A stretch of 64,000 bases of DNA from Acetobacter thailandicus (GTDB lineage: Bacteria; Pseudomonadota; Alphaproteobacteria; Acetobacterales; Acetobacteraceae), in the NCBI RefSeq assembly GCF_011516655.1, contig NZ_WOSV01000007.1, positions 1-64,000 on the forward strand, read 5' to 3'. Below the pieces are notes generated by a model. That model did no database searches. It was not told where the DNA came from and saw nothing but the letters and a program-made list of their open reading frames with translations. Below are positions 45,451-63,691 of this stretch, one piece after another. The translations under genes were made by a program, and so were the position numbers. The stretch's first letter is position 1. Every line of letters starts with the position of its first letter.

Positions 45451-45690
45451 TTATTTATACCCCTCTACTGCCATTACCGTGCGCATCAATACTTCAGAAC
45501 CATAAGGCATCCAGAATAATCCCTGGCTTTGCTCATCTTTTTTAAAAGGCAAAGCTGTCCTTATCCTGATTTCAAAATGTCGAATTTTCTAAAACTATGA
45601 ACATATCAGAAATAAAAACCCGATATATACCTTTGTTAAAAACCTAACCTAAAATACAACACGCCGGTAAATAACATGATGTTTTTAAAA

Positions 45691-47138: not shown

Positions 47139-47204
47139 TCCACTCACCTGTTAACACACCATAAATCGCTGTCACGGTTTCACCGCAACGGCTTGGCTAT
47201 GTCA

Positions 47205-47226: not shown

Positions 47227-47339
47227 CGTGTAACATAATCTTAAAAAATCTATATTAAGAAAATACTTTTAATATTGGTATTATAAAATCCGCCTGATTT
47301 TCTCAGCGCTCTGTTATGTGTCATAATAAAGGTTTCTAC

Positions 47340-48200
47340 ATGCCGCTGTCCTCTTTGCCACTCACAGCTTTATCCAGAGTGGTCATTGCAATTTTTGCGG
47401 CAACGCTCCTTGCCGGGTGCGTCACAAATAATTCACACAACCTTTCAGATGCAGCCCGACAACAAAAGACTGCTCATAACCCAGACGCTATGATGAGAAT
47501 AGGCACCAGTGCTGAAACCCGTGGTGACTGGGCTGCGGCTGCCGTATTTTACGGCCACGCGATGCAACTACGCCCTGATAATGCTGACTATGTCATAGCT
47601 TATGCCAATGCTCTTATGCATAATGGTCATGCAGAAGAAGCAATCAATGCTATTCATAAAGCTGAAAACTATTCATCTGATCATAACAAAATACAGCTTA
47701 CACTTTTCCTTGCCCGCCTGCTCAATACAGCGCACCGCTCTCAGGAAGCCATTGCAGCTCTACACCCTCTGATAGAACAACACCCTGACTCAGCACCTCT
47801 TCGTGTTGCACTCGGCGTCGCCTATGAACTGTCAGGAGATTCACCAGGAGCACAGCAGGCCTACCTTACGGCTTTAAAAATTGACCCGCATAATATTGCA
47901 GCACGTAATAACCTCGCTCTCTCTGAAGCGCTGGACGGACAGAACGAAACAGCCCGTAAAGCACTTCTGGCCTTGCGCACGGAAGCTGTAGAAACAGGAG
48001 CCCCCGCCAGCTCACTCGCCACCATTGATGGAAACCTCGCTATTGTTTATGCGCTTGAAGGTAACCTCACTGATGCGCGCCAGGCCGCACAGGGTGCTGC
48101 CCTTAACAGCGAAGAGACGCGACAAAATATGCGTTTTTATTCGTTTCTCCACGCATCTCAGGGAACAGAGTCTGCATCATCATCTGTGTTATCAGACTGA
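47340..48200 (+). CDS. TPR lipoprotein, TadD-like
   Basis: This 286-residue protein has a lipoprotein signal (hydrophobic run then LLAGC, Cys about residue 27) and at least five tetratricopeptide repeats, e.g. WAAAAVFYGHAMQLRPDNAD and APLRVALGVAYELSGDSPGA. TadD proteins of Tad pili are lipoproteins of this size and design that help secretin assembly. The start is ATG 47340, with AAAGG upstream. Its end overlaps the CpaD-like gene on the other strand by 43 nt. It is probably the pilotin for the CpaC-like secretin. Confidence 0.75.
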   Translation: MPLSSLPLTALSRVVIAIFAATLLAGCVTNNSHNLSDAARQQKTAHNPDAMMRIGTSAETRGDWAAAAVFYGHAMQLRPDNADYVIAYANALMHNGHAEEAINAIHKAENYSSDHNKIQLTLFLARLLNTAHRSQEAIAALHPLIEQHPDSAPLRVALGVAYELSGDSPGAQQAYLTALKIDPHNIAARNNLALSEALDGQNETARKALLALRTEAVETGAPASSLATIDGNLAIVYALEGNLTDARQAAQGAALNSEETRQNMRFYSFLHASQGTESASSSVLSD

Positions 48201-48895
48201 CCTGCTGTTCTGGCCGCAAGCGGTGTTGTTGTCGTGGTCTCAGCCGGCGTCGTCTGGCTTGCAGGTGTCAGACTGCTATCACTCCCGCCGGCTGAACCAG
48301 AAGCACCAGAAACTGAACCTGAACCTGTCTGCGATACAGGCTGCTGCTGGTTATTTTTATCTGCCCCCTGCTCCCACAATTCAACAACCCGGCCAAATCT
48401 TGCCCCGTTAGCAGGTTGTAGATGCGCCGGCTGAACCAGATCTCCCGGATTATCAATTTCTTCAGCCAGTGCACTGGCCTGCACACATGATCCGGTAGCA
48501 GACAAGCTGTTCGAGACATCTCCTGTCCAGCTTTTATGAACTGCCAGGCGGCAGTCAGGCCGCGCGACGAGGTAACGTCTCATCACCAGCATATCTGCCG
48601 GTGAATCCACATAATAAATCCGGGCAGCATTAACACCTGCATGGGTTAACATATGCCTTATTGTTTCAGCCTGCTGTTTATTCACGCTGCTAAGTGTCAC
48701 ATGCAGTTTTTGCGGGTCATTTATTTTTGCCAGTGCCTGCGCCACTGCCTGATAAGCCCCCTCCTCTGACAGCGATATGCTGATGTCATTCTCTCCCACG
48801 AGTAATGGCGGCGGTTTATTACCCTGACGTGCCCAGTGCATATCACAACCAGCGACAAAAAACGGAAGCAGAGTCAGTAAGATGTATTTTTTCAT
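48158..48895 (-). CDS. CpaD-like lipoprotein
   Basis: This 245-residue lipoprotein (LLPFFVAGC) has a central CpaD-type region, with ADMLVMRRYLVARPDCRLAV and the hallmark SATGSCVQASALAEEIDNPGDL, the C-x-x-x-x-x-N-x-x-x-x-x-x-x-P-x-D-L pattern of Tad secretin partners. The last 70 residues are Ser/Thr/Gln-rich and disordered. Its ATG overlaps the secretin stop by 4 nt, so it is made together with the secretin. Confidence 0.75.
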   Translation of the reverse strand: MKKYILLTLLPFFVAGCDMHWARQGNKPPPLLVGENDISISLSEEGAYQAVAQALAKINDPQKLHVTLSSVNKQQAETIRHMLTHAGVNAARIYYVDSPADMLVMRRYLVARPDCRLAVHKSWTGDVSNSLSATGSCVQASALAEEIDNPGDLVQPAHLQPANGARFGRVVELWEQGADKNNQQQPVSQTGSGSVSGASGSAGGSDSSLTPASQTTPAETTTTTPLAARTAGQSDNTDDDADSVP

Positions 48896-50310
48896 TGATA
48901 CAGAAACCCTCCTGCACCCTGCAGATGCGGTGCGCGCAGGGCATCAATATCACCATGCGTGGCACTGGCAGTACGATGTAGCAAAAGCGCCTCAAAAGCT
49001 GATGCTGGCCTGATATAATCAGTCGGCAACACAGGTACATGATCAGATGGATGCACAATATAAGCTGTTACAACAATCAGCAGCTCACTTTCATTGCGTT
49101 GAAAAGACGTAGAACGGAACAACGCTCCCAACACAGGAATATCACCCAGCCCGGGCACTTTCGAAATTGTATTACTCGCATCATTAGAAATCAGGCCACC
49201 AATGGCAAAACTCTGACCGGAGGCAAGCTGTATAGTGGTATCGGCCCTGTTTGTACGAATTGCCGGCACGATATTCCCGCTCCCGCCGGAGAGGGAATAC
49301 GCCCCATCAACAGCTTCCATCGACACCGTGCTGACTTCAGGTGCTACGTGCATGCTTATAGTACCGTCAGACAGAACCGTCGGTGTAAAGTTTACACTTA
49401 CTCCATAATTTTTATATGTAATGCCAACCGAACCAAGGCCCTGAGGCACCGGAACAGGGAACTGCCCGCCGGACAAAAATTTTGCGGTTTCGCCCGACAT
49501 TGTTGTCAGATTAGGCTCCGCCAGCATTGTTGCCAGACCTTCCGTCGCCATAGCGTCGAGGGTACCAGTTACTGATGAGCTCCCGTTAGTATAACTGCCT
49601 GATAGTGTATTTGTTGCACTTGATACAGTTTTAATGGCACTGGGCAATTCGCTCAGACCACCGGTAGCCGCTCCGATAGCAAAAGACCCCACACCGTTAA
49701 AAACGGTTGTCCAGTTAAACCCAAGGTCCTGCGATACCTTACGCTGTACTTCGGCTACTCTGACCTGCAGGTTAACCTGCACAGCCTGGCTTATGGTCAG
49801 CCGGTTTATAATCTGCTCTCCCGGGCCCGCATACTGACGCGCAAGTGCGGTCAGATGCGCTGCTGCCCGTGCATCTGGCACCCGACCGGACAGAACAACA
49901 CCCTGAGGTGAATTTTCTACCTGGATATTCTGCCCGCCTTCAGCCTGAATAGCCTGATGCATAGCATCCATATTAAAAGTGACTGTTACGTCACCCGAAA
50001 TCATTTTCCGGCCACTCTGATCAAGCACAATAAAGGTGGTATGACCGGGCTTTTTACCAAAAATAAAGAGGTTGTTATTATCGGTATACTGTACGTCCAT
50101 AATTGCCGGATCAGCAATCATAACATTTGCCACCTGTCCGGGCAGAGAGATGAGCTGCCCGCCGCCGACTGTCAGCGTCATATTATGAATGCCCTGAACC
50201 TGCCGGGCACTGAGAGAAGAACTAAGTGCCAGCATAGTCGCTGAAGCAGTGCATAAAAGCCTGACAGGCCTGATTGCCATGCGAATATGCCAGATTTTTT
50301 TTAAAAACAT
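48892..50310 (-). CDS. Tad-type (CpaC/RcpA) secretin inside a type III locus
   Basis: This 472-residue outer-membrane secretin has the Tad layout: signal peptide, pilus-N domain (GGGQLISLPGQVANVMIADP), BON-type domain (GVVLSGRVPDARAAAHL), and a C-terminal secretin core (TMLAEPNLTTMSGETAKFLS, GGQFPVPV, VPGLGDIPVLGALFRSTSF). It has no type III N0/N1 domains. I start at ATG 50310, just after the regulator stop. The regulator, this gene and the CpaD-like gene form a leftward run behind sctV. No Tad ATPase, platform or pilin genes are nearby, so it probably supplies the outer-membrane ring of the type III system. Confidence 0.85.
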   Translation of the reverse strand: MFLKKIWHIRMAIRPVRLLCTASATMLALSSSLSARQVQGIHNMTLTVGGGQLISLPGQVANVMIADPAIMDVQYTDNNNLFIFGKKPGHTTFIVLDQSGRKMISGDVTVTFNMDAMHQAIQAEGGQNIQVENSPQGVVLSGRVPDARAAAHLTALARQYAGPGEQIINRLTISQAVQVNLQVRVAEVQRKVSQDLGFNWTTVFNGVGSFAIGAATGGLSELPSAIKTVSSATNTLSGSYTNGSSSVTGTLDAMATEGLATMLAEPNLTTMSGETAKFLSGGQFPVPVPQGLGSVGITYKNYGVSVNFTPTVLSDGTISMHVAPEVSTVSMEAVDGAYSLSGGSGNIVPAIRTNRADTTIQLASGQSFAIGGLISNDASNTISKVPGLGDIPVLGALFRSTSFQRNESELLIVVTAYIVHPSDHVPVLPTDYIRPASAFEALLLHRTASATHGDIDALRAPHLQGAGGFLYQ

Positions 50311-50317
50311 TTTATTG

Positions 50318-50998
50318 CTAACCACACTCTGCAGCCAGCCGGTAACCAACGCCCCGCACGACTTCAATTTTCACATGCGAGCCAGCTTTAGCCAGCTGCC
50401 TGCGGATACGGCTGACACGTACTTCTAAAGAATTGGGGCAATATTCTGCCAGTGCACCATATACATCGTGTTCAAGCCCGGCACGTGGCACCACACGCCC
50501 CCGACGACGCATAAGAGCTTCAAGAATAAACGTTTCGCGTTTCTGAAGCTGCAAAGCCAGGCCACCCACTGACACTTCACGCGTGAACGGACAAAGCGTG
50601 ACATCACTAAATTTATGATAATCATTGGTCTGCACACGAGAGCGACGTAAAACGGCACGAATACGGGCAATAACCTCACGTGGTGTAACTTCGCGCGTTA
50701 CGCTGTCATCCGCTCCTGACTCAAGGGCAATAATTCGCTCTTCAGGTGTGTCTGTAATCAGCAGAAGAAAAGTGTCCTCAGCAGCACCCCTGATAGTTTT
50801 CCTGTCTCGCCACCACGTTTTATAATCACCATCATACACGCGGGGGTCAAAAATAACGGCATCATAATGCCCCTGTGTCAGAGCATAGCTGGCATCTTCA
50901 AACATAATAAAAATATCTGTACCAAAACCAGCATGATGTAAGTGCTTTGCCAGACTGTTTGCAAAGCTCTGATCGGGTGACATGATCATCAGTCTCAT
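50318..50998 (-). CDS. TtsI-like OmpR-type response regulator
   Basis: This 226-residue regulator has an N-terminal receiver domain and a C-terminal OmpR/PhoB winged helix (EYCPNSLEVRVSRIRRQLAK, VRGVGYRL). The phospho-acceptor position Asp51 is present (AVIFDPR), but the acidic pocket is reduced (SPD at 7-9) and the conserved Lys-Pro after the last strand is replaced (GADDSVTREV), so phosphorylation may be weak or absent. Rhizobial TtsI is a similar atypical regulator of about this size. GGAG 6 nt before ATG 50998 sets the start. No histidine kinase is adjacent. Likely controller of the type III genes. Confidence 0.8.
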   Translation of the reverse strand: MRLMIMSPDQSFANSLAKHLHHAGFGTDIFIMFEDASYALTQGHYDAVIFDPRVYDGDYKTWWRDRKTIRGAAEDTFLLLITDTPEERIIALESGADDSVTREVTPREVIARIRAVLRRSRVQTNDYHKFSDVTLCPFTREVSVGGLALQLQKRETFILEALMRRRGRVVPRAGLEHDVYGALAEYCPNSLEVRVSRIRRQLAKAGSHVKIEVVRGVGYRLAAECG

Positions 50999-51029
50999 GA
51001 TCTTCTCCTGCCTCGTCCTTTTACCCGGG

Positions 51030-53165
51030 CTATTTTCCTGCAATAGCCTTGTCATTTCCAAAAAAGCCCATCCCGACAGAACCAACAGGATGAACCGGAA
51101 ATTCTTCAGCCAGATCCTGATAAGAAAGTACGGCGTTATCGAAGCCGTTACGCATCAGAAACCCTCTGACAAACCGACGTGTATCCACTGAACACACCAC
51201 AACTGGTTTTGTAATTTCAGTGTCTCCACCCATGTTACCCTGGGCTGCATTAAGGCAGTCACGCACTGCATCAAGCAGGTTTTGTGAGGCATCTGCCTCC
51301 AGCGCAAGAAATGCTCCTGAAGGTGCCTCACGAACAGATTTACGAATGATTTCATCTGCTTCATGCGTCATAACAACAGCAGCAATAGCCTTTTGTGCAG
51401 AGGCATAACGATGACATATCTGACGCGATAAAGCCTGGCGTACATGCTCTGTCAGTAACGGCGCTTTGCTCTCTTTCTCGCCCCACATCACAAGTGTTTC
51501 AAGTATCAGGCGCATATTGCGTAATGAAACATCTTCTTCCACAAGGCGGCGCAATATTTCTGCAAGACGCTGCACCGGCACAATTTTCAGAACCTCACGC
51601 GTCAGGTCTCCATACTCTTTTTCCACGCGCTGGATAATATGTCTGGTTTCCTGTAAGCCGACGAAACGGCCAGCATGCCGGCGCATGGCCGCACGGAAGC
51701 GAAAAACTATAACCCCGACATAATCATAAAACCCGATACCTGCTGCTCTGAGACGTCCTTCTTCCGCCATAGCAACCCATACTGAAGGCCCGGACGTTAA
51801 AAGAGGCTTTCCCTCCACCCCTTCAATTCCGGCGAGATCAAGATGCACAGGATCATCATACAGCACAAATGCATTGCGATACATTTCATGCTCTTCAATC
51901 GGGACATCTTCGAGATCAATTGAAAACCGTAAATCATCCGTATGACCAGCAGTGCGCACGCATGGAGCAGGACAACTGAAACCAAACTCTTTTTCAATGT
52001 CAGAACCAGCTCGGGCCAGAAAGCGCTCAAGACGAGAGCGATCACACACAGCGGCCATCCCCGGAGTCAGGGTAATAGCCAGCAATGACGTAAACTGCTC
52101 ACCGGGCTTTAATTGCCCATCAGGAACGGATATTTCAGGAAAAATTCCATCAGCAAGCTCAGCTTCATCTACAGATTTTCGTCGTGTCAGCTTATCAAAA
52201 ATAGCTTTCCAGTCAGGACGACTGCCGCAAAAAAAGAGTAATGCCAGAACAAAAAATACAGATTTAGGAAAACCAGGGATGAGCCCCATTGCCAGCAATA
52301 TACATGATGCCACGCGCAGCGCGCCTTTATGCGATGTCAGCTGGCCTGCCATATCACGCCCGAGGTCAAGACCATGCCCCCCGACACGGGTAACAACAAT
52401 TGCCGCAGTAATTGACAACAGCAAGGCCGGAATCTGAGAAATAAGCGCGTCACCAACAGTCAGCAGCGTATATGTGTGCATGGCTTCACTGGCAGACAGG
52501 CCACGCTGTGCAATACCAATGCTAATACCCCCCACAAGGTTCACAATAATAATAATTAACCCTGCAATAGCATCGCCTTTTACAAATTTTAGCGCACCAT
52601 CCATTGCGCCATGTAACGCGCTTTCACTCGATAATTCGGCTCGCCTTCGCCTTGCCTCAATAGCATCGATGTCACCAGAGCGCAGATCGCTGTCAATGCT
52701 CATCTGTTTACCTGGCATGGCATCAAGCGTAAAACGTGCACCAACCTCGGCTACACGTTCAGTACCTTTTGTAACAACGATAAACTGAACAGTCGTTACA
52801 ATTGCAAAAATGACCAGACCAACAACAATATTCCCCCCGATAACAAACTCGCCAAAAGTTTCGACAATCGTACCGGCATCAGCAGTCGTGAGAATAAGGC
52901 GGGTCACCGTGACCTCAAGAGCCAGGCGAAAAACTGTAGAGATCAGAATAATACCAGGCAAGGCCGTCAGATCGAGGGGGGAGCGCAGATATACTGCAAC
53001 CATCAGCAGCAGAACAGATAAGCTCAAATTGCAGCCAATAAGTATATCGGCCAGAGCCGCTGGCAATGGCATGATCAGCATGCCGATAGTCAGCATAAGA
53101 ACCAGAACAAGAGCCAGATCCTGACGCTGGCTCATAACACGGAAAAAAGGTGTCAGCGCCTTCAT
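51030..53165 (-). CDS. sctV: Type III secretion export gate protein SctV
   Basis: This 711-residue FHIPEP-family inner-membrane protein forms the nonameric export ring. The first 320 residues hold the membrane helices and the family signature RRAELSSESALHGAMDGALK followed by FVKGDAIAG. A cytoplasmic domain with ring-building subdomains fills the rest. Its ATG overlaps the sctY stop. Length matches non-flagellar members (HrcV/RhcV). Confidence 0.95.
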   Translation of the reverse strand: MKALTPFFRVMSQRQDLALVLVLMLTIGMLIMPLPAALADILIGCNLSLSVLLLMVAVYLRSPLDLTALPGIILISTVFRLALEVTVTRLILTTADAGTIVETFGEFVIGGNIVVGLVIFAIVTTVQFIVVTKGTERVAEVGARFTLDAMPGKQMSIDSDLRSGDIDAIEARRRRAELSSESALHGAMDGALKFVKGDAIAGLIIIIVNLVGGISIGIAQRGLSASEAMHTYTLLTVGDALISQIPALLLSITAAIVVTRVGGHGLDLGRDMAGQLTSHKGALRVASCILLAMGLIPGFPKSVFFVLALLFFCGSRPDWKAIFDKLTRRKSVDEAELADGIFPEISVPDGQLKPGEQFTSLLAITLTPGMAAVCDRSRLERFLARAGSDIEKEFGFSCPAPCVRTAGHTDDLRFSIDLEDVPIEEHEMYRNAFVLYDDPVHLDLAGIEGVEGKPLLTSGPSVWVAMAEEGRLRAAGIGFYDYVGVIVFRFRAAMRRHAGRFVGLQETRHIIQRVEKEYGDLTREVLKIVPVQRLAEILRRLVEEDVSLRNMRLILETLVMWGEKESKAPLLTEHVRQALSRQICHRYASAQKAIAAVVMTHEADEIIRKSVREAPSGAFLALEADASQNLLDAVRDCLNAAQGNMGGDTEITKPVVVCSVDTRRFVRGFLMRNGFDNAVLSYQDLAEEFPVHPVGSVGMGFFGNDKAIAGK

Positions 53166-53485
53166 CAGCGCAGAGCCTGCGTATAACAGGCAAAAGCCGC
53201 ACGGGCCTCCTCCAGGCGCCCAAGCTGATGCAACGCACGTGCCCGCAACAGAGTATGAGCATTATCAGAAACGGGCCTGATCTCTTCAAGACGGTCAAGA
53301 ACGGCGAGAGCCAGCTCGCCCCGTCTGATCATTGTATAAACATGCGCCAGCATACGCAGGCTTTCGCAATCATCAGGCTGCTGAGAAATTACCAGCAGCA
53401 GCATTGGCAAAGCCCGCCAGTTACGACCACAGCAAATATACAGATAAGCCAGAGAGACCAGAAGATCGCGCTGATCGCGCTCCAT
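53165..53485 (-). CDS. sctY: Type III chaperone-like TPR protein SctY
   Basis: This 106-residue all-alpha protein has TPR-like repeats (LAYLYICCGRNWRALPMLLL, ARALHQLGRLEEARAAFACY). Size, fold and position directly before sctV and after the sctX candidate match YscY, which with YscX binds the cytoplasmic domain of SctV. ATG 53485 is chosen over a TTG at 53500 because GGCGGA lies 7 nt upstream. Confidence 0.7.
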   Translation of the reverse strand: MERDQRDLLVSLAYLYICCGRNWRALPMLLLVISQQPDDCESLRMLAHVYTMIRRGELALAVLDRLEEIRPVSDNAHTLLRARALHQLGRLEEARAAFACYTQALR

Positions 53486-53489
53486 CACA

Positions 53490-53870
53490 TTATCCGCCAA
53501 TTATATTGCTGGAAGCATGAAGTAACCTGTCGAGACTGGCGATTTCATGGCGTAATGTATCAAGACCGCCAGGCACAACCGGTGCCGTATTAGCATGCGA
53601 AGATATCCGTGCTTCCAGACGCCGCAAAAGAAGCTGCCTCTGCGCAGGCATCAGCACAGCGGGGTTACAAATATGCGGCATAATATGCGTAAAAACAGCG
53701 TTAATAACACTCGGCGGGTCTATGCTGTCGGTTATTTCATCCTCAGCAAAAAGCGCTTCCTGAACTGACGCAACCTCTGTTTTCAGTAAAGGATCATCAC
53801 TTTGCACAGATACATCCTGCAAAGCACGATCGAGCCTGACAGAGCCTCCGCCATCAATCCTTTGAAACAC
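53490..53870 (-). CDS. sctX: SctX-like early type III substrate/partner
   Basis: This 126-residue mainly helical protein has the layout and place of YscX: gene order X-Y-V, stop 5 nt before the SctY start, C-terminal leucine-rich helix (LDTLRHEIASLDRLLHASSN). Sequence similarity to known YscX proteins is weak by eye, so the call rests mostly on synteny. Confidence 0.55.
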   Translation of the reverse strand: MFQRIDGGGSVRLDRALQDVSVQSDDPLLKTEVASVQEALFAEDEITDSIDPPSVINAVFTHIMPHICNPAVLMPAQRQLLLRRLEARISSHANTAPVVPGGLDTLRHEIASLDRLLHASSNIIGG

Positions 53871-53908
53871 ATAGACCTCATATCGCTATCGCACCTCAGA
53901 CTCGCAGA

Positions 53909-54853
53909 TCAGTAACGAACGTTAATGATTTGCGAACCTTTACTCATAACTATGCGATGAGATCTGATTTCTAAAAGAGACAATCCTGTTACAATTTCTG
54001 ATCCGGCTTTATAACGCTGGGCATGCACAACGATATTGGGGTTCTTCCCGGTCCATACCGCCTGCACAGGCAGGTCGGGTGGCGGACTGCCTGACCCGAC
54101 AGTAACCTTAGAAATCCAGACATACTGCGTGCCAAAAGCAGAATCGAACCATTTTTCTATTGTATGAAATTTTGCCATATCCTGCGCCGGCAGAGTGCCC
54201 TCAACAGTCACAACACCTGACTCAGCACTGACTTTAAGAGCTGACAGGCGCTCGCGGGCAATGGCACTTACAATCTTTTGTCCCAGGGCCGCATCGCTTA
54301 ACGTGGCCTCTTTGACCAAAGATCCGGTCCCGACATTATCAGCGCTCTGGCTGGCTGGTGGCACAAACGGCTTCTCTTTACCCATCGCGTCAGGGTGTAA
54401 TGCTGCCTGACACAAAAAAATTCCCAGAACCACGGCACCCCCACCGGCAATTAACACAACCGGATTGAGCTTTTTTGTCGATCTGTTTTTTTCTGAAACC
54501 TCAGAAAACTGCGCAGACAGAGTAGAAACATCACCAACATTCTGCCTGGAGCACAGTGCAATTGTTACACCTGCAACCCTCAGCCCCGCAGGTGCTCTGA
54601 CCTCTCTTTTTTCATGCACCGCCAGCGGTGCATCATCAACAAAGACATCTGAACTGAGAGCTGTGACTGAAAAAATATCAGGCCCGATACGCTCTACAGA
54701 CACATGCCGGGCAACAATGCCCTCATCAAGCAAGGCCATACCGGCTTCAGGGCCGGAGCCAATCACCACCGGAGCACCACTGGCAGAAATCATTTTTGCT
54801 TCAGCATGCAAGCCATTATGCACCTGTAACATAAAAGAATTTTCTGCATTCAT
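53909..54853 (-). CDS. sctD: Type III inner-membrane ring protein SctD
   Basis: This 314-residue protein has an N-terminal FHA-like domain (about 1-100), one transmembrane helix (NPVVLIAGGGAVVLGIFLCQ, about 135-155) and periplasmic BON-like ring-building domains (SAESGVVTVEGTLPAQDMAK). This order is that of YscD/HrpQ. It pairs with the lipoprotein SctJ in the basal body. I start at ATG 54853, although GAGGGG lies 13 nt away; ATG 54883 is possible. The gene follows the two small secreted candidates. Confidence 0.82.
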   Translation of the reverse strand: MNAENSFMLQVHNGLHAEAKMISASGAPVVIGSGPEAGMALLDEGIVARHVSVERIGPDIFSVTALSSDVFVDDAPLAVHEKREVRAPAGLRVAGVTIALCSRQNVGDVSTLSAQFSEVSEKNRSTKKLNPVVLIAGGGAVVLGIFLCQAALHPDAMGKEKPFVPPASQSADNVGTGSLVKEATLSDAALGQKIVSAIARERLSALKVSAESGVVTVEGTLPAQDMAKFHTIEKWFDSAFGTQYVWISKVTVGSGSPPPDLPVQAVWTGKNPNIVVHAQRYKAGSEIVTGLSLLEIRSHRIVMSKGSQIINVRY

Positions 54854-54941
54854 AACTTTACGGCAACCCCTCGTCAGATGCAAAAATGGTCTGCCAGGCA
54901 GAAATATTCCCCCTTGCAGACCATTTTCTGCTTAGTGCAGA

Positions 54942-55130
54942 TCAGTCTTTCGTGAAGGAAGACTTGGCATTGCTTTCCATTGTCTGAGCAAAGTCGTTAG
55001 CAAACGTCTGAGCGTTAGAAATTTCAGACATTTTTTCCTGCTCCTGCAGGTTTTGATCTTCCATAGCTTCAGATTCCTGCATAACCTGGCTCATTGTAGA
55101 ATCTGTATTAGAAGAAATTGAACCGCTCAT
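54942..55130 (-). CDS. Small helical protein, candidate needle/pilus subunit (SctF-like)
   Basis: This 62-residue protein has no Cys and no signal peptide. It is rich in Ser, Met, Gln and Glu (NTDSTMSQVMQESEAMEDQN), with a helical second half ending SSFTKD. Needle subunits are 60-85-residue helical hairpins encoded next to sctD, and no other needle gene is visible. Sequence alone does not prove it; it could be another small secreted protein. TGGAGT precedes ATG 55130. Confidence 0.45.
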   Translation of the reverse strand: MSGSISSNTDSTMSQVMQESEAMEDQNLQEQEKMSEISNAQTFANDFAQTMESNAKSSFTKD

Positions 55131-55213
55131 TCTAAACTCCATTGGACAATAAAAAAAACTAAGTGAAAAATATCAGTGTGTTACTGATACCTCTTTGAAC
55201 ATCAGAGATTTTC

Positions 55214-56008
55214 TTACGAAGAAGATGAACCACCTGATTTCATTTCTGACATAAGCTGGGAAATCATAGCCGCCATTTCCTCTGCGACCCCTTCCATTTC
55301 CTGCGTGCTGCTATCGGAAGATGCTGAAGAGGCAGCTGAAGTGCTGGTGTCTGAACTTTCACCTATTGCGGCTTCAAGGTCTTTGACAGCGGAAGAGCTG
55401 TTAAACGAACCTGATTCAGCTTCACTCGCAAGGTTTTTAGCCGTTTGTGCGAGCTGTGTATTGCCTGCGTTTGAGGCTTCGGTTGCCAGTGCATTAAAGT
55501 TATTGACTTCATCCGCCCCTGACTGACCGGACTCAAGACCACTCGCAATAGAATTTACGTTGTTTGTTATTGCATCAACGCTTTTTCCCTGAATGGCCGC
55601 AGCGATGGCATTGCTGCTGCCGCCCTGCTCGTAAGTACCATCAGAGAGGCTGTTAGCAATATTTGTCGCAACGGAAGAATCAATACCGTCGCTCTGATTG
55701 CTGGCTTCAGACGCAACAGCCCGTGCATATTCCTGCAGCGTGTTGCCGTTTGTGCCTGTTCCATCGACCAGCTTTTTAAGCGTGGTCATATCCTGATCAA
55801 GATTACCTGTAACAGAAAGCCCGGTATCACCCACAGCTGTTGAATTAGCAGAATCCTGAGTTTCGGCCTGCTTTTCCATTAATTCAAGTAACTGAGAAAG
55901 AGCCTGCGCCATTTGCTGAGCAGTATCAGCGCTCAGGTCCTGGTCAGACGTCGTACTCCCGTCTGAATAACTACTTACGCCACTTGTCGCATCCATCGTC
56001 GTCACCAT
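55214..56008 (-). CDS. Harpin-like Ser/Ala/Gln-rich protein, candidate type III substrate
   Basis: This 264-residue protein has no Cys, Trp, Pro, His or Arg-rich segments, very high Ser, Ala, Gly, Asn and Gln, and short amphipathic helices such as AQQMAQALSQLLELMEKQAE at the start and EEMAAMISQLMSEMKSGGSS at the end. This composition is typical of harpins and of type III translocators/needle-tip proteins of plant-associated bacteria. It is immediately upstream of the small candidate needle gene. Function is inferred from composition and place. ATG 56008 and 55996 are both possible starts. Confidence 0.6.
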   Translation of the reverse strand: MVTTMDATSGVSSYSDGSTTSDQDLSADTAQQMAQALSQLLELMEKQAETQDSANSTAVGDTGLSVTGNLDQDMTTLKKLVDGTGTNGNTLQEYARAVASEASNQSDGIDSSVATNIANSLSDGTYEQGGSSNAIAAAIQGKSVDAITNNVNSIASGLESGQSGADEVNNFNALATEASNAGNTQLAQTAKNLASEAESGSFNSSSAVKDLEAAIGESSDTSTSAASSASSDSSTQEMEGVAEEMAAMISQLMSEMKSGGSSSS

Positions 56009-56212
56009 ACTTTCCGACCCAGAGACTGAAACACCAGAGAACAGGGCTAACCTGCTCTCAGGTCCGATCTTTACCCGGCAACGTTTTTAAAAAACGCTAC
56101 GTGGATCGGCCATAAGCTGGAAGTAATTGACTATTCTGACCAGAACCTGACGCAGTTTTGAGATGAGTTGATTTTTGACAAAAACGGTGCGGTTTCATCA
56201 AACTGTCATTTA

Positions 56213-56833
56213 TTACTGAGGCACCTGCTGCACTGCTCCACCACGAAAAATAGTCACTGTCTGATGAGCCGCCCTGGTTTTTAATAACTGAATGGTCTGA
56301 TCAATACGCTCAAGCATACGCGGTGGCCCGAAGGCCGTAACAGCATCACCATTACTATCTTCATGAACAGAATAATGTGGTTCTAACATTTTTTTGGCAT
56401 CAATAGCCCGTCTCAGCCGTGCATAGGGCACACCATCCAGTGAAAATATATGACTGGACGCTTCTGAAGCAGGCGTGATGTATAATGTATTACCATCGTA
56501 ATACCAGTCCAGGTGGTATTCGGCAGTCAGGGCATCAAGAAATGCCATCGGCGTTGCCGCTGTAAACCCTGAACGGACATTCCCTTCAACTGAGGGGTCG
56601 ATAATAACCCTTAAGTCCACATCTCCGCAAAACTGAGTAATCGCCTCAGATAATGTCTGATGAAGCACAGTATACCGCCCCTGATCTGGTAACGGCATCA
56701 CCTCTGCCCGGGCTGTTGTCTCAACAGTTATGACTGCTATCAGAGCCAAAAAACCAGAAAGAAACGATGGATTTTTCCACCCTTTACGCAGTGTCATCAG
56801 CCTCATCATACGCGACTTAAATTTCTGCTTCAT
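56213..56833 (-). CDS. NolW/RhcC1-like N-terminal secretin piece (N0-N1 only)
   Basis: This 206-residue protein has a membrane/signal segment (FLSGFLALIAVITVETTARA) followed by the type III secretin N-domains: LHQTLSEAITQFCGDVDLRV, VRSGFTAATPMAFLDALTAE, YHLDWYYDGNTLYITPASEA. It ends before any pore-forming secretin domain. In rhizobia the secretin is split into RhcC1 (NolW) and RhcC2, and NolW is divergent from NolB exactly as here. The start is uncertain (ATG 56833 or 56869). Its pore partner is probably the CpaC-type secretin at 48892. Confidence 0.8.
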   Translation of the reverse strand: MKQKFKSRMMRLMTLRKGWKNPSFLSGFLALIAVITVETTARAEVMPLPDQGRYTVLHQTLSEAITQFCGDVDLRVIIDPSVEGNVRSGFTAATPMAFLDALTAEYHLDWYYDGNTLYITPASEASSHIFSLDGVPYARLRRAIDAKKMLEPHYSVHEDSNGDAVTAFGPPRMLERIDQTIQLLKTRAAHQTVTIFRGGAVQQVPQ

Positions 56834-56921: not shown

Positions 56922-56979
56922 TTAGTTGTTAAAAAATTATTGTGTGCAGAAGAGAAATGCTGTCTCCGGAGCAATACGT

Positions 56980-57513
56980 ATGACAGGACTTGCAGGATTA
57001 GATGCAACATCTCTTGCGTCACCAGCACTGAATCAGGTTTCAGATGATATATCTCAGGGAGGGGGCGCACATGGCGTCCAGCAGCTTGCTTTTACTGAAA
57101 TAACACCTGAGCAGACATCATTCTTTACCGGTTCTGTTACTCCGGCAGATACACTCCGCGAGCATTTTCTGAGCGGGCTGGGGAAAATAAACAGCTCTTT
57201 TACCCATCTTGATTCTCTGGCTCCTGAAATGTTGCCTGATGGTAAACAGCTTAGCCTTTCTTCATCGTCAAAATCCTCACCTTACGCTTCGGAAACACCT
57301 CTCTCATCTCTCACCTCTGCCACCGAAAAAGCACCGGGCGGAGATCATTCAAAGATCTTCGAAAAGGTCGAGCAGGAGGGAATTGCGATGTATAATGAGG
57401 CACTGAGCAGGCAGATGGCGTTTTCAAACGCTGAGTTTGAAACACATATTATTACTGTCTCTTCACAAAATATGACCTCTACCCTGAAGAGCCTGCTCAC
57501 GCAGGGGGGCTGA
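56980..57513 (+). CDS. sctI: NolB/SctI-like inner-rod protein
   Basis: This 177-residue protein has a Ser-rich variable middle and a helical C-terminus (EGIAMYNEALSRQMAFSNAE, then SQNMTSTLKSLLTQGG) like the C-terminal helix of inner-rod proteins. It sits directly before sctJ, where rhizobia have nolB. GGAG 8 nt before ATG 56980 fixes the start; an upstream TTG at 56926 lacks a site. It begins the rightward operon. Confidence 0.7.
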   Translation: MTGLAGLDATSLASPALNQVSDDISQGGGAHGVQQLAFTEITPEQTSFFTGSVTPADTLREHFLSGLGKINSSFTHLDSLAPEMLPDGKQLSLSSSSKSSPYASETPLSSLTSATEKAPGGDHSKIFEKVEQEGIAMYNEALSRQMAFSNAEFETHIITVSSQNMTSTLKSLLTQGG

Positions 57514-57517
57514 CATT

Positions 57518-58270
57518 ATGCGCCGCTTTCAGGTCAGACTACCGGCCCTGCTTATTTTACTTTCACTCACAGGCTGTCAGACACAGCTGTACACCCATCT
57601 CTCAGAACGTGATGCCATGGAGATGACTGCCATCCTGCTCCATAACGGCATCTCTGCTGACCGGGTCATTGCAAAAGATGGCAGCTCAACCATTGAAGTG
57701 GCAGGCAGTCAGGTCGCAGATGCAGTCTCTGTTCTTCGGGCCAGTCATTATCCACGCAACGACTACGAAAGTATGGATAAAATCTTTCAGCAGCAGGGCA
57801 TGATAAGCACCCCGACAGCTGAGCGCGCAAAACTATATTATGGCATCAGCCAGGAACTTGGACACACACTCAACGATATAGACGGCGTTATTGATGCCCG
57901 TGTGCATATAGCACCAGCCGTGAATGACCCTGTTACCGGTATAGATAAACCAGCGACAGCCTCGGTCGTTATACGCTATGATGCCGGCACTTCAATGACA
58001 GGGCTACTGCCCAAAATTAAGCTCATGGTCGCCAATGCAGTGCAGGACCTGGCCTATGACCGGGTTTCTGTGATCTTGCTGCCAGAAGCGTTGCCACACC
58101 TGCCTCAGGTTCAGATATCAAACCGAATGAGCCTGCCTGGTCTTCTGGGCTGGTTTTTTGCCTTGCTGTTTCCATGCGGTTATGGCGTGCATTACTGGTT
58201 ACAACGTCGCAAAAAACAAACATCTGACACAGGTTCCCAGCTCACCGTTTCACCACGTCAGACACCATGA
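57518..58270 (+). CDS. sctJ: Type III lipoprotein ring protein SctJ
   Basis: This 250-residue YscJ/HrcJ-family lipoprotein has a signal ending LSLTGC, ring-building motifs (LSERDAMEMTAILLHNGISA, YGISQELGHTLNDIDGVIDA, ARVHIAP), and a C-terminal transmembrane helix (LPGLLGWFFALLFPCGYGVH) with a basic tail. It forms the inner-membrane ring together with SctD. It follows sctI by 4 nt. Confidence 0.93.
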   Translation: MRRFQVRLPALLILLSLTGCQTQLYTHLSERDAMEMTAILLHNGISADRVIAKDGSSTIEVAGSQVADAVSVLRASHYPRNDYESMDKIFQQQGMISTPTAERAKLYYGISQELGHTLNDIDGVIDARVHIAPAVNDPVTGIDKPATASVVIRYDAGTSMTGLLPKIKLMVANAVQDLAYDRVSVILLPEALPHLPQVQISNRMSLPGLLGWFFALLFPCGYGVHYWLQRRKKQTSDTGSQLTVSPRQTP

Positions 58271-58887
58271 CAATGCCTGCGGCTCTGCCACCCACTGTGC
58301 AGATGATACAGAGTATGCACTCTTCTCATTTACAACTGCGTCTGCCTGCGCTGCGCCGGGAAACTATTCTGCGCCTTCAGGCCTGCACCCGCCTGACTGG
58401 CAAACTGAGCGACCTCTTTCCTTCTGAGACATTTCAACAGCCTCCCGCTGCACAGACAGCCTGCGAGGCACTGGCGTCGCAAACAAGTCATGTCATTATG
58501 CAGGCAGGTTATCGTATGAGCGCATTAACCTACTGGCGTGAACTTGCAAAACACGTTGATAAACACTCAGTCACACTGATTGACAGCGCTCTGGGGGCTG
58601 AGCTGCGCTTATCTGCCATACGGCTTGGCGCGCAGCTTGCCGGGCACTCTCCCTCGCCTCTTACCTCACCCCCCACATCGACCAGCCCGACAGAGCCGCA
58701 GGTTCTGATACGCACTCTTACGGATTTTGCCCACTCCTGCCTGGCACGCTGGCATATGACACTACGTGCTGAATATCGCCCCGTCGCGAGGCTCAAACTC
58801 CCTGCCACAAACCTGCCTCAGGCAGCTGCCGGGCATTTCGACCCTGTTATCCTGTATGTAGCGCAGGAGATAACAGGTCATGTCTGA
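58267..58887 (+). CDS. sctK: NolU/SctK-like accessory protein
   Basis: This 206-residue protein starts in a 4-nt overlap with sctJ and overlaps sctL by 8 nt. Mostly helical, with TGKLSDLFPSETFQQPPAAQ and LGAELRLSAIRLGAQLAGHS; the middle is Pro/Ser/Thr-rich. Sequence is poorly conserved, and the name rests on its place between J and L, where rhizobia have nolU. SctK is part of the cytoplasmic sorting platform. Confidence 0.6.
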   Translation: MTMPAALPPTVQMIQSMHSSHLQLRLPALRRETILRLQACTRLTGKLSDLFPSETFQQPPAAQTACEALASQTSHVIMQAGYRMSALTYWRELAKHVDKHSVTLIDSALGAELRLSAIRLGAQLAGHSPSPLTSPPTSTSPTEPQVLIRTLTDFAHSCLARWHMTLRAEYRPVARLKLPATNLPQAAAGHFDPVILYVAQEITGHV

Positions 58888-59461
58888 TAAAGTTTTTTCC
58901 CGCCTTCAGCCGGATCAGACCATTCTGCTACCCGAGCAGATGAACGCCTGGTGTGATGCAACTACTGCTTACAATGCTGCCATCAGCAACGCCAGGGCAT
59001 TACTCTCTGCCGCGCAAAATGCCTATAACGAACAATGCCTGCGCGGTTATCAGGAGGGATGTGACAAAGCTGCCGGAGATATGGCGCAGCGCCTGCTGAG
59101 TGCTGATCAGGCCGTGGCAAAAATTTTACAGGACCTGGAGCAAAATCTTCCCTCGGTCATTGCAGACGTAGTGGATGATATTTTTGGCAGGCTGGATATC
59201 AGTGCTGTACTCCCTCACGCCATTCGTCATACGCTCACAAAAATCAGACAAGGCACACTTGCGACCCTCAGAGTGGCACCCGATTGTGCGGAACTTATAA
59301 GACCTGTTCTCGCAGAACTCCCCCCTCCTGGGATTCAGCTGGAAACAGACCCTTACTTACCAGCAGGCCGATGCGTTCTTGAAAGTGAGCTGGGCGTGGC
59401 AGAGCTGGGGATAAAAGCACAGATTGCTGTTTTGCGCGATTACCTTACCACAAAATGGTAA
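58880..59461 (+). CDS. sctL: ATPase stator SctL (NolV-like)
   Basis: This 193-residue protein of the HrpE/YscL/FliH type links the ATPase to the sorting platform. A long N-terminal helix (YNAAISNARALLSAAQNAYN) precedes a C-terminal V-ATPase-E-like domain (IRQGTLATLRVAPDCAELIR, YLPAGRCVLESELGVAELGI). The tail SELGVAELGI is typical. It lies between sctK and the ATPase. Confidence 0.83.
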   Translation: MSDKVFSRLQPDQTILLPEQMNAWCDATTAYNAAISNARALLSAAQNAYNEQCLRGYQEGCDKAAGDMAQRLLSADQAVAKILQDLEQNLPSVIADVVDDIFGRLDISAVLPHAIRHTLTKIRQGTLATLRVAPDCAELIRPVLAELPPPGIQLETDPYLPAGRCVLESELGVAELGIKAQIAVLRDYLTTKW

Positions 59462-59467: not shown

Positions 59468-61171
59468 ATGACTGACCTGCCCCTCTCCCCCGCTGAGCTG
59501 TATAATGCGCAGCCGGATATAACAGAGCCCGCACAACTGCCGGTGCGCTCTCTTGCTACTGCTCTCGAAGCTGACTTTATAAACTTACAGGCCGGATTTA
59601 AAAAAAATATTAGTGGCAGTTTAGAAAAACAGTCAGGTCAGGCAAAGCTACCAGCCGAAACGAAACAATCTGCCCCGCCGCAGCCACAGGCCGAACAATC
59701 GTATAATACCAGCCCCTCTCAGCATCCTCTCCCCCACGAAGAAGCAGAAACCAGCCAGGAAAACAAAAAAAGCAACACTGCATCTTTTTTATATCAGAAA
59801 GATACTTCTCTTCCCGCGACAACCTCTTCTCCTGCCAGTACAGCCAGCCATATTATTAATCGTATAAAACAACGGCTGCCGGACCTGCGCACTCTGACAA
59901 CAGACCTGAATACCCGCCCACTGCACGGACGGGTAACAGGAGCAACAGGCACTATTATTCGTGCAGTTTTGCCCAATGTTGCTATCGGCGATTTATGCCG
60001 GTTACATAATCACAACGATGACTGGTCACTTGATGCCGAGGTTGTCGGGCTGGATGGGCGGGAAGTGCTCCTGACCCCCATGGGCGAAATCTATGGCGTC
60101 TCAGCTGAAACCGAAGTTGTCACAACAGGCCGGCAGCGCCATTGTCCGGTTGGAGAACATCTGCTCGGCCGCGTGCTTGATGCATTGGGTGAGCCTGTTG
60201 ATGGCCGGGGCGCTCTTCCTCCCGGTCCGTCCCGCCCTGTTTCGGCACCCCCGCCTCCTGCTATGGAGCGTCAGTCTGTTGCTCGGCCCTTACCTGTAGG
60301 ATTGCGTGTTCTTGACGGGTTACTGACCTGTGGTGAAGGGCAGCGTATTGGCGTTTATGGTGAAGCCGGGGCCGGCAAATCAACCCTGATGTCTGCCATT
60401 GTTAAAGGTAGCAGCGCTGATGTTGCTGTTGTCGCCCTGGTGGGTGAGCGTGGCCGTGAAGTGCGTGAATTTATTGAACATAACCTTGGTGAGGATGGTC
60501 TGAAAAAAACGGTTCTTATCGTTTCCACCTCTGACAGACCTGCGGCTGAGCGGGTTCTCTGTGCAAAAACGGCCACAACAATCGCAGAGTATTTTCGTGA
60601 CCAGGGACTGAAAGTACTTTTGTTTGTTGATAACCTTACACGCTATGCCAGGGCATTACGCGAAATTGGCCTTGCTGCGGGAGAGCCTCCTGCCCGCCGT
60701 GGTTTTCCTCCCTCCGTTTTTGCCGCGCTGCCACAGCTCATGGAGCGCACAGGTATGGGCGTGAAGGGGTCAATCACCGCTTTTTATATGGTGCTGGTTG
60801 AAGATGGCGGAGATGACCCCATAGCAGAAGAAACCCGCGGCATTCTTGATGGTCACATCATTCTCTCACGTGCTCTGGCCGCTTCAGGCCACTACCCGGC
60901 CATCGACGTCCTTTCCAGCCGTTCGCGCGTTATGAACCTCGTAACCAGTGCAGAACATATTAAGACTGCTACAAAAATACGTAGCTTATGGGCGCGTTAT
61001 AAAGAAATCGAATTTCTTTTACAGGTTGGTGAATACAAAGCGGGAGGAGACCCTCTGGCAGATGAAGCCATTTCTAAAATCGATTTACTGCGCAGCTTTT
61101 TACAGCAAGACCATAATGACTATACGTCTTTCACTGAGGTGCTGGCATGGCTCAACCGTCTGCACAGCTGA
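59468..61171 (+). CDS. sctN: Type III secretion ATPase SctN with long N-terminal extension
   Basis: This 567-residue hexameric ATPase energises unfolding and entry of substrates. Walker A is GEAGAGKST (298-306); [38 protein letters not shown] (Walker B) and [20 protein letters not shown] follow. About 130 residues precede the normal start of the family (near [12 protein letters not shown]): Pro/Gln/Ser-rich, low-complexity, with no recognisable domain. Family members are about 430-450 residues long. The downstream sctO starts inside its last 25 nt. Confidence 0.95.
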
Positions 61172-61695
61172 CAATCTATACAGCCCGGCAACTGACATTG
61201 CTACGTACGCGGCGCAGTGACCAGGCTCGTATATTATTTAAGAAAATCAGCTCAGAACTGACACACGCAGTCACCTCATACACACAGGCTCTTAACGCGC
61301 TGAAGTCGCATCAGAACGCATGGGCTGAAACACAAGACCGCATATCAGAGCAACATAAAGGGCATATCCTCAAAGGGCAGCACTTCCGTCAGGATCACGA
61401 AACACTGCAGCGTATGGCTGATCAGGCTATCCGTCTGGAGGAGAAAGCTGCGGCAGACCATAAGGTTGTTGAAAATCTGACACTGATGGCCACGCAGATA
61501 CGTCATGACCTGATGATGGCTGAACAAAAAGAAAAACAGGCTCAGGATTTCGTAAAGAAAATTCAGGAAAATGAAAAAAAAGCACGATACAACCGTGATG
61601 AACAGGAACTTTCTGACCTGGTTATGGCCCGTCACAGTGCCAGTCAGACCAAAGAGCGCACAAAAAAATTAATAATGAATAAGCTTAAGCCATGA
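61147..61695 (+). CDS. sctO: Coiled-coil stalk protein SctO (Y4yJ/YscO-like)
   Basis: This 182-residue, strongly charged protein is almost entirely helical coiled coil ([40 protein letters not shown]). Size and place between sctN and sctQ match YscO/FliJ-type stalks inserted into the ATPase ring. Its ATG lies 25 nt inside sctN and its stop overlaps the sctQ start. Confidence 0.78.
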
Positions 61696-62747
61696 CTACT
61701 GAGGCCCGGACATACCCCCTGCCTTCGGCAGTACCATATCACCCTCATACACTCGGTTATAATGCCGCAGTCAGTCGCCTTTTCGGGCGAAAACCATTTA
61801 TTATCCCCGCAGGAAAGACCACTTTTACCATCAGATTCAACCCTCCCGTCACACCAGAAAATGACTGGTATGCACTCGTATTTTCTACAGGTGAGGATAA
61901 AGGATTTTTCCTTCTCTCTAAGGAAAGCATGTCTGCACTGCTACACATGGCTGAGCCCTCACCTCATGCAGGCATAGAGCCAGAGGTCGCACTCCTGCTG
62001 CTTGAGCTTCTGTTTGAGAAGGCACTAAACAGCTTTGAGGAGATGAGTGGTCAGGTTGTTCATCTGTCTTATATTACCACAGCGGCAGAAGCTCTGCGAC
62101 ACACAGATATAAACTGCAGAACGGGTTTTCAGGCAGCATCTGACACGAACATATTATTTGAAGGCGTATTATGTTTCGAAACTGCCTTTCTGCCTTTACT
62201 GCATTCTCTGGCCCCTCCCCTGGCGGTGCATTTTCCTGACCCGCCAGTCACTCTTGCTCTGACTGTTGGCAGCGTTGCTCTGACACCCGGGCAGCTCAGC
62301 ATGCTTGCGCCAGGTTTTGGCCTGGTGCTGGGGCCAGGTGACAGCATCAGCCTGAGCATCACAGCCGCAGAAGCACTAAGTGCTTCGGTTAATTACGTAA
62401 ATAATAAAATTATTTTTCACAGCAACCTTTCACCTGTGACACAAAACCTGACAGCAAACAGGACTGATATGACTGATACACCCCCCTCTCCTGAAACAGA
62501 CCCTTCTTCCCTCATCAGTGAAAGCACTCTTGATCAGCTTCAGATCCCTTTAACATTTGAACTGGCGCGTATAACGGTCTCACTTGCTGAGCTCAGAACA
62601 ATGGGAGAAGGACATATCATTGACATTGGCCCTCTGAACGAACGGGCTGTCTCTATTATTGCGAACGGACGACGCATAGGTGAAGGAGAACTGGTGACGA
62701 TCGGACAGTCAGCAGCTGTTCGCATAACCCGGATTATTACGTCATGA
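61692..62747 (+). CDS. sctQ: Cytoplasmic ring/sorting-platform protein SctQ
   Basis: The C-terminus of this 351-residue protein is a SPOA domain like FliN/HrcQ: LQIPLTFELARITVSLAELR, DIGPLNERAVSIIANGRRIG, EGELVTIGQSAAVRITRI. The N-terminal 250 residues are variable. It forms the cytoplasmic pods that load substrates. It overlaps sctO and sctR by 4 nt each. Confidence 0.85.
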   Translation: MTTEARTYPLPSAVPYHPHTLGYNAAVSRLFGRKPFIIPAGKTTFTIRFNPPVTPENDWYALVFSTGEDKGFFLLSKESMSALLHMAEPSPHAGIEPEVALLLLELLFEKALNSFEEMSGQVVHLSYITTAAEALRHTDINCRTGFQAASDTNILFEGVLCFETAFLPLLHSLAPPLAVHFPDPPVTLALTVGSVALTPGQLSMLAPGFGLVLGPGDSISLSITAAEALSASVNYVNNKIIFHSNLSPVTQNLTANRTDMTDTPPSPETDPSSLISESTLDQLQIPLTFELARITVSLAELRTMGEGHIIDIGPLNERAVSIIANGRRIGEGELVTIGQSAAVRITRIITS

Positions 62748-63394
62748 TCAGTTCATCAAACCTTGTTACAGCACTGGTTCTGACACTTGGTTTTGGCATT
62801 CTCATTCTTGCTGTTCTGACAGTCACCTCTTTTGTAAAAATTTCTGTTGTTCTTTTTCTGCTGCGCACAGCTCTGGGTATTCAGCAGGCACCGCCCAATA
62901 TCGTACTTTATGCCATTGCTCTTATGTTAACCCTTTTTATATCTGCGCCTCTGGGGCACGATATTTATAAATCACTGGCTGAATCTGATCAGAAATATGA
63001 AACGATTTCAGACTATGCTGAAGCTTATGATCATATTCAGGAGCCCATAGCACACCATCTGCTACACTTTACCCAGGCGCCTGAACGAAAATTTTTTATA
63101 AGTGCAACCAAACGGTTATGGCCTGAGGATATGAGAGATAGTCTGTCAGATGACTCTTTGCCAATTTTACTCCCGGCTTATCTGACAGGTGAACTTAAAC
63201 GCGCTTTTGAAATTGGCTTTCTGATTTATCTGCCCTTTATTACCATTGACCTGATCGTTACTACTATTCTGATTGCTATGGGGCTTTCGCAGGTCCAGCC
63301 CAATACGATCTCCGTTCCTTTAAAATTATTACTCTTTGTTCTCGCCAGCGGCTGGACCCGCCTGCTGCATGGCCTGGTGCTGAGTTATACCTGA
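62744..63394 (+). CDS. sctR: Type III export apparatus protein SctR
   Basis: This 216-residue FliP-family membrane protein of the export gate has the signature SFVKISVVLFLLRTALGIQQ then APPNIVLYAIALMLTLFI, and the second conserved block ELKRAFEIGFLIYLPFITID and LKLLLFVLASGWTRLLHGLV. The start overlaps sctQ by 4 nt. Confidence 0.95.
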   Translation: MISSSNLVTALVLTLGFGILILAVLTVTSFVKISVVLFLLRTALGIQQAPPNIVLYAIALMLTLFISAPLGHDIYKSLAESDQKYETISDYAEAYDHIQEPIAHHLLHFTQAPERKFFISATKRLWPEDMRDSLSDDSLPILLPAYLTGELKRAFEIGFLIYLPFITIDLIVTTILIAMGLSQVQPNTISVPLKLLLFVLASGWTRLLHGLVLSYT

Positions 63395-63418: not shown

Positions 63419-63691
63419 ATGGATGATGCCTCGCTCACACAGGAACTGTCATCTGCTCTTTTTCTGTTCGCCTCAATTGCAGGGCCGCCTCTGGCAGTTG
63501 CTCTCATTGTCGGGCTGGTTGTCGGGCTCATGCAGGCTGTGACACAGCTACAGGATCAGACCATGCCTCTTACTTTTAAAGTCGTGGCGGTCTGCGCCAC
63601 CCTTTTGCTTATGGCCTCCACACTGTTCCCTCCTCTGCTGTCATTTACGGAACGTATTCTGAATGATTTTCCGACCATGACACGGTACTAA
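63419..63691 (+). CDS. sctS: Type III export apparatus protein SctS
   Basis: This 90-residue FliQ-family protein has two transmembrane helices (ALFLFASIAGPPLAVALIVG and VVAVCATLLLMASTLFPPLL) and the signature GLVVGLMQAVTQLQDQTMPL. GGAG precedes the ATG. It assembles with SctR and SctT into the gate. Confidence 0.94.
   Translation: MDDASLTQELSSALFLFASIAGPPLAVALIVGLVVGLMQAVTQLQDQTMPLTFKVVAVCATLLLMASTLFPPLLSFTERILNDFPTMTRY

Follow-up and report, generated by a model that had tools for sequence, protein, structure and literature searches.

Rhizobial type III secretion systems (T3SS) with a two-piece secretin are the closest described relatives of the locus reported here, which lies in Acetobacter thailandicus within the first 64,000 nucleotides of contig NZ_WOSV01000007.1 (RefSeq assembly GCF_011516655.1; the whole of this stretch is called the window below). 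Passages in Abby and Rocha (2012, PMC3459982) describe the rhizobial RhcC1/RhcC2 pair as a Tad-derived pore with a truncated SctC; RhcC2 groups with the Tad secretins and shares the architecture of CpaC, and partial replacement was inferred. A passage in Denise (2019, PMC6668835) states that T3SS co-opted secretins several times, with Tad among the sources. Parts of Mercante (2015, PMC4311626) report that a gene in the T3SS cluster of Mesorhizobium loti is a CpaD homologue, and that the TPR lipoprotein Y4yS is closer to TadD than to T3SS chaperones and is required for normal RhcC2 levels. The genes ttsI (y4xI), rhcC2 and y4xK are given together in sections of Gazi (2012, PMC3574062) and Tampakaki (2014, PMC3973906), and the order regulator, secretin, CpaD is annotated in the records of NGR234, Bradyrhizobium 62B and M. 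amorphae. The mechanism of a system-specific pilotin, and the need for one, were listed as open in 2015 (Gazi commentary, PMC4500985).

The original prediction for this locus paired an N0/N1 NolW with a Tad-type pore, and this central idea is the published description of rhizobial RhcC1/RhcC2. Its opposition of an RhcC2 to a Tad pore is a false one, as the rhizobial RhcC2 is itself described as Tad-derived, and the arrangement is no novelty, since rhizobia are known with a Tad-type RhcC2, a CpaD homologue, a TadD-like pilotin and the same gene order. What goes beyond the literature found is a separate RhcC2 clade, a conflict between the core and secretin trees, and a conserved Tad-like docking tail. 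Among the matches listed in a search of open-licence papers (titles and starts of abstracts), there was no account of a split T3SS secretin in the window's family. The genes concerned are as follows (window coordinates).

47316..48200, + strand: TPR lipoprotein and candidate TadD/Y4yS-like pilotin, its gene convergent with the CpaD-like one (TPR, lipobox, neighbourhood)
48158..48895, - strand: CpaD-like lipoprotein (y4xK/mlr8762-like), whose gene overlaps that of the secretin by ATGA (PF09476, 39.7 bits; lipobox)
48892..50310, - strand: RhcC2-type secretin with pilus-N, BON and secretin domains, outer-membrane pore (Pfam/NCBIfam, nearest structure RcpA, tree)
48895..48909, - strand: final five secretin codons, GFLYQ, the tail on which the TPR lipoprotein is predicted to dock (conserved tail; function known for RcpA-TadD)
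50318..50998, - strand: OmpR-type response regulator, 35% identity to NGR234 TtsI over 221 aligned columns (profile matches, alignment)
56213..56833, - strand: NolW/RhcC1, T3SS secretin N0 and N1 domains only (TIGR02516 positions 8-141 of 463; N-terminal parts of MxiD, InvG and EscC; predicted fold)

A Tad-type pore and a separate N-domain protein

The T3SS of the window was confirmed to have a split secretin, in which NolW (RhcC1) carries only N0 and N1 and the pore comes from a separate secretin of Tad type, RhcC2. Both proteins have the content originally predicted for them. The secretin matched the pilus-N (2.2e-19) and Secretin (1.7e-46) domains, with a BON match (1.8e-5, 25.4 bits) slightly below the Pfam cut-off of 27. 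On the 463-position SctC model, NolW aligns to positions 8-141 only and the secretin to positions 223-462, and the two halves are therefore complementary. The closest solved structure to the secretin is the Tad protein RcpA (3.4e-47), with the T3SS secretin InvG far weaker (5.7e-9), in agreement with the pore type proposed. Among solved structures, NolW has its relatives in the N-terminal regions of MxiD, EscC and InvG, and hence in T3SS N-domains only. In its predicted fold, which is of modest confidence (6 sequences; mean pLDDT, the predicted local distance difference test score, of 61 for the best model and 40-49 for the other four), the elements fit two alpha/beta domains at residues 54-121 and 127-187, followed by a disordered tail. 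Six Gluconobacter records contain the nearest named relatives of the secretin (79-83%).

The genome (2.8 Mb in 45 contigs, with a stated completeness of 100 and contamination of 0.63) contains a single secretin, a single FHIPEP and a single SctU, and no complete SctC was found in it beside the RhcC2-type secretin at the locus. Three Tad markers were searched for genome-wide and gave no match, namely T2SSF (TadB/C), T2SSE (CpaF) and the Flp pilin, for which control matches were obtained in 13/14, 14/14 and 1/14 genomes, respectively. Within the window there was no match to pilin, CpaB, CpaE, CpaF, TadB/C or TadE. Nothing found elsewhere in the genome therefore accounts for the genes at the locus, be it a complete SctC or a Tad locus with these markers, the two possibilities raised with the original prediction.

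It is hardly credible that the three genes are the remnant of a Tad pilus that merely lies beside the T3SS and has no part in it. The domain layout resembles that of Tad, as do the two lipoproteins, but none of the three markers is in the genome, the T3SS would then be without a pore (one secretin in the genome), and the secretin, CpaD-like and TPR genes stay together in 20/20 loci from three T3SS groups. Very probably the locus encodes the outer-membrane portion of an Rhc-like T3SS whose secretin is split. In such a system NolW would form a periplasmic collar above the SctD/SctJ rings, and RhcC2, which is of Tad/CpaC type and has pilus-N and BON domains of its own, would contact the collar and form the pore.

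Candidate lipoprotein partners and the secretin tail

The coupling of the secretin to a CpaD-like lipoprotein held up. The protein scored 39.7 bits against the CpaD family (cut-off 31.1) and has the lipobox VAGC, and its start codon overlaps the secretin stop codon in the sequence ATGA. Among solved structures it had no convincing relative (a single row, E-value 0.16). This protein may act as a translationally coupled assembly factor.

The neighbouring protein has TPR repeats and a lipobox (LAGC), in agreement with the adjacent TPR lipoprotein originally predicted; its TadD-like label comes from architecture and context, with no TadD-named model among the families listed. When solved structures were searched by sequence, no TadD chain was among the 25/25 matches listed for the TPR lipoprotein or in the best 60 of 94 matches for an Azospirillum TadD. 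In Pseudomonas aeruginosa, according to part of PMC10499894, TadD binds the last four residues of RcpA, which are essential for secretin formation; RcpA has C13/C14 symmetry. The secretin tail of the window-family clade and of Rhc-I resembles this TadD-docking tail. The C-terminal pattern G-[FY]-[ILVM]-x-x was found in 19/19 rows of the T3SS secretin clade of the window's family and 8/8 Rhc-I rows (27/27 together), and elsewhere in 12/23 Tad, 0/2 Hyphomicrobium and 0/2 GspD rows. A looser pattern fits 17/23 Tad rows, and Gly-aromatic occurs in the final five residues of 21/23 Tad and 4/5 Rhc-II-type rows. In 19 thinned rows from the window-family clade and Rhc-I, the tail Gly (4.3 bits) and Phe/Tyr (3.8 bits) were both present in 19/19, and positions -6, -7 and -9 from the C-terminus had 2.0, 2.2 and 1.1 bits, respectively. 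Position -8 had 3.1 bits, hence the docking tail is not the sole conserved spot. Conservation of the tail supports, at the level of sequence, the idea that the TPR lipoprotein acts like TadD: it would dock on the G-[FY]-[ILVM] tail and, in the way TadD serves RcpA, pilot RhcC2 to the outer membrane.

Phylogeny of the core and the secretin

By their core, ten of the T3SS loci compared, the window among them, were grouped as Aw, three as A75 and six as A78, beside an Rhc-II-like group. The secretin tree comprised 59 rows, 23 of them Tad; a further Gluconobacter locus (L004), the Halomonas secretin L016 (two frames) and several Tad loci were left out of the secretin trees, and no tree includes L088, a contig with NolW only. 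One clade (100/99) comprised 19 T3SS-linked secretins, all from the window's family or Gluconobacter, another (100/100) the eight Rhc-I secretins and a third (97/98) the five Rhc-II-type rows, among them L089 and L090 from two genomes of the window's family. Thus 19/21 T3SS secretins of the window's family are in a clade of their own, apart from rhizobial RhcC2. The Tad rows fell outside all three clades, with 13 Tad rows of the window's family together (100/99), and the tree did not fix the branching order between the T3SS-linked clades and the Tad sequences. A single clade of all T3SS-linked secretins was 9.7 log units worse and not rejected (p value of the approximately unbiased test, p-AU, 0.19), nor was the 19-row clade with Rhc-I (p 0.26). 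Both a single and an independent recruitment are therefore possible. As to where the secretin should be placed, a question raised with the original prediction, a position within rhizobial RhcC2 is rejected (Aw with Rhc-I, p-AU 0.002) and a single T3SS-linked origin is not.

Other loci came to light in this comparison. The window-family loci L089 and L090 represent a further Rhc-II-like T3SS with a split secretin, and the family thus has at least four T3SS core groups. An Rhc-like T3SS is also carried by a plasmid of the gammaproteobacterium Halomonas (L016), whose record has RhcC2 in two frames. A Hyphomicrobium metagenome-assembled genome (L009, 7807-13824) has a secretin, CpaD and a convergent TPR gene together with a TadG-like gene; there was no match to pilin, CpaB, CpaE, CpaF, TadB/C or TadE in the 21 kb searched. 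A free-standing cassette was considered for Hyphomicrobium L008 and L009, but with the TadG-like gene beside its secretin L009 is taken to be a Tad fragment.

It is quite unlikely that this family's T3SSs recruited a Tad secretin independently of the rhizobia, with the likeness in gene order arising by convergence. Three separately supported T3SS-linked clades, with their order among Tad unresolved, would fit such recruitment, as would the Aw secretin being about equally near to Tad (40.6%) and Rhc-I (41.0%). Convergence of gene order is conceivable because cpaC and cpaD adjoin in Tad operons too, with the secretin likewise followed by CpaD. Against it, a single T3SS-linked clade is not rejected, and the upstream regulator, 35% identical to TtsI, is in the same place.

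The core tree was built from SctV, SctN, SctR and SctJ (30 rows, with gaps for absent genes). It grouped Aw with Rhc-I (98/98) and A75 with A78 (100/100) and rejected Aw with A75 (p-AU 5e-5); in SctV alone, Aw also groups with Rhc-I (97/96). The secretin tree instead joined Aw and A75 (99/96), rejecting both A75 with A78 (p 0.014) and Aw with Rhc-I (p 0.002). An A75 and A78 secretin clade was rejected again without the Tad and Rhc-II rows (p 0.030) and without the long rows (p 0.040). Mean identities divide in the same way. A75 is closer to A78 than to Aw in 4/4 core proteins (SctV 47.0 and 42.5%, SctN 58.3 and 57.2%, SctR 67.6 and 51.4%, SctJ 52.4 and 37.2% to A78 and Aw, respectively), and closer to Aw than to A78 in 3/3 outer-membrane proteins (secretin 54.8 and 50.0%, TPR 38.6 and 32.1%, CpaD 30.8 and 28.3% to Aw and A78).

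One explanation of this conflict is that the secretin was inherited with the Rhc core from an ancestor common with rhizobia and that its tree is misled by long branches. The order regulator, RhcC2, CpaD is as in Rhc-I, where it was matched in 8/8 loci fetched, the core tree places Aw with Rhc-I (98/98), and neither the single T3SS-linked secretin clade (p-AU 0.19) nor the 19-row clade with Rhc-I (p 0.26) is rejected. Vertical inheritance is nevertheless unlikely, as the secretin data reject a clade of Aw and Rhc-I that leaves out A75 and A78 (p 0.002) and mean secretin identity is 54.8% between Aw and A75 versus 41.0% between Aw and Rhc-I.

The sequence comparisons give moderate evidence that the pore gene, perhaps with both lipoprotein genes, changes T3SS hosts. 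A fuller proposal, made tentatively, is that the pore, CpaD-like and TPR genes are a mobile outer-membrane cassette swapped among T3SS lineages, with NolW a fixed adapter that stays with the core and the pore and pilotin matched via the Tad-derived tail. The RhcC2, CpaD-like and TPR genes are together in 20/20 Aw, A75 and A78 loci, and the TPR gene points towards its two neighbours. L004 is included in this count, and in L093 the TPR gene was matched in two frames at the edge of the stretch fetched. This block is on the opposite strand to SctV in 6/6 A78 loci, SctV lies between it and the regulator in G206, and in G132 it is on a different contig from NolW and SctV. This layout fits a cassette but does not prove mobility. 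The test does not reject a single Aw clade for the secretin (p 0.29), and the data point to no direction of transfer. For the outer-membrane module swap of the original prediction there is some support if it is recast as an exchange from one T3SS lineage to another, in which the pore gene, probably with the two lipoprotein genes, would have been passed on and NolW kept with the core. NolW homologues were found in 11/299 sampled genomes of the family and 9/49 of the genus, the window's own included, and the T3SS is therefore patchy. Secretin matches were found in 210/299 family genomes, some of which were sorted into Tad or T3SS.

Several results count against these proposals. The Aw, A75 and A78 groups were named after the trees had been seen, which makes the p-values optimistic, and a single core clade of all three was not rejected (p-AU 0.10; SctV alone, 0.076). 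By mean identity, Aw is closer to Rhc-I than to A75 in SctV only (46.9 versus 42.5%) and almost equal to the two in SctN (57.3 and 57.2%), SctR (50.8 and 51.4%) and SctJ (36.5 and 37.2%). The NolW tree recovered the core topology weakly (90/78 and 90/79) and rejected neither alternative (p 0.12 and 0.085). The CpaD tree was unresolved, the best tree leaning to A75 with A78 (47/0), as was the TPR tree on the placement of A75, and secretin, CpaD and TPR combined gave p 0.058 against A75 with A78. L089 and L090 have Rhc-II-type secretins outside the 19-row clade and gave no CpaD-like match, and the C-terminal pattern fits just 1/5 Rhc-II-type rows. No needle, translocon or effector was recognised among the proteins of the T3SS cluster in profile scans.

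Neighbouring genes and comparison with described systems

The remaining T3SS genes recognised at the locus are listed below.

51030..53165, - strand: SctV/RhcV export gate (TIGR01399, 784 bits)
53165..53500, - strand: SctY-like TPR chaperone (NF052415, 66.4 bits, below the cut-off of 70)
53909..54883, - strand: SctD (Y4yQ-type) inner-membrane ring protein (PF23893, 4.9e-17; TIGR02500, 44 bits against a cut-off of 86)
57518..58270, + strand: SctJ (PF01514, 1.4e-23)
58880..59461, + strand: SctL (PF06635, 1.5e-19)
59468..61171, + strand: SctN ATPase (TIGR02546, 600 bits)
61692..62747, + strand: SctQ (TIGR02551, 3.9e-25)
62744..63394, + strand: SctR (TIGR01102, 1.4e-75)
63419..63691, + strand: SctS, followed by SctT and SctU across and beyond the window end

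The export core is represented at the locus by D, J, L, N, Q, R, S, T, U and V, with J, L, N, Q, R and S on a divergent run on the opposite strand to the NolW, SctD, SctV, regulator, secretin and CpaD genes. Small proteins without a Pfam match are encoded in or beside the cluster at 44830-46026, 53490-53870, 55214-56008 and 56926-57513, and their position suggests secreted, pilus/inner-rod or chaperone roles. In the TtsI-like regulator, the receiver domain scores weakly in Pfam (E-value 0.081); judged by eye from the alignment, the usual receiver Asp is apparently retained and the usual Lys is not, and NGR234 TtsI has Glu where the Asp usually sits. A scan for tts boxes gave no match near the genes; one match with 3 mismatches lies at 12151, with 0.18 expected by chance. 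Directly past the TPR lipoprotein gene is a Cupin_8/JmjC-like protein (46071-47147, - strand, E-value 4.4e-32), and a large putative surface protein of 1265 amino acids with AIDA-type repeats and a Hint_2 domain is encoded at 37454-41251 (- strand).

How a T3SS with a two-piece secretin crosses the outer membrane is unsettled. With one T3SS, one secretin and no Tad marker found, this genome offers a clean background, and the same design is present in named Gluconobacter species. For the pilotin contact, the retained tail leads to a specific prediction. The boundary between the two halves would be a natural modular interface if the cassette does move without NolW, and the split of the secretin would itself allow such pore swaps.

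The Rhc-II T3SS (P. syringae T3SS-2 and NGR234 T3SS-2 in published work; Phyllobacterium L017 and others in this comparison) share the split into RhcC1 and RhcC2 with the window, but their core and secretin are in separate clades from those of the window, and the Rhc-II stretches fetched have a different gene order and no CpaD-like match. The Tad RcpA/CpaC-CpaD-TadD set shares the secretin domain layout, the CpaD and TPR lipoproteins and a similar C-terminal tail, whereas the window secretin lies outside the clade of 13 Tad rows from the family and the Tad genes searched for in the window and genome were unmatched. The rhizobial Rhc-I systems (NGR234, M. loti) differ in that the TPR gene adjoins sctV in NGR234 and the CpaD-like gene in the window; in addition, the window secretin is in a separate clade common to the A75 and A78 groups, and the host is no rhizobium. 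With Rhc-I the locus shares the N0/N1-only NolW, the Tad-type RhcC2 followed by a CpaD-like lipoprotein, the TtsI-like regulator before RhcC2, a TPR lipoprotein in the cluster and the core grouping (98/98).

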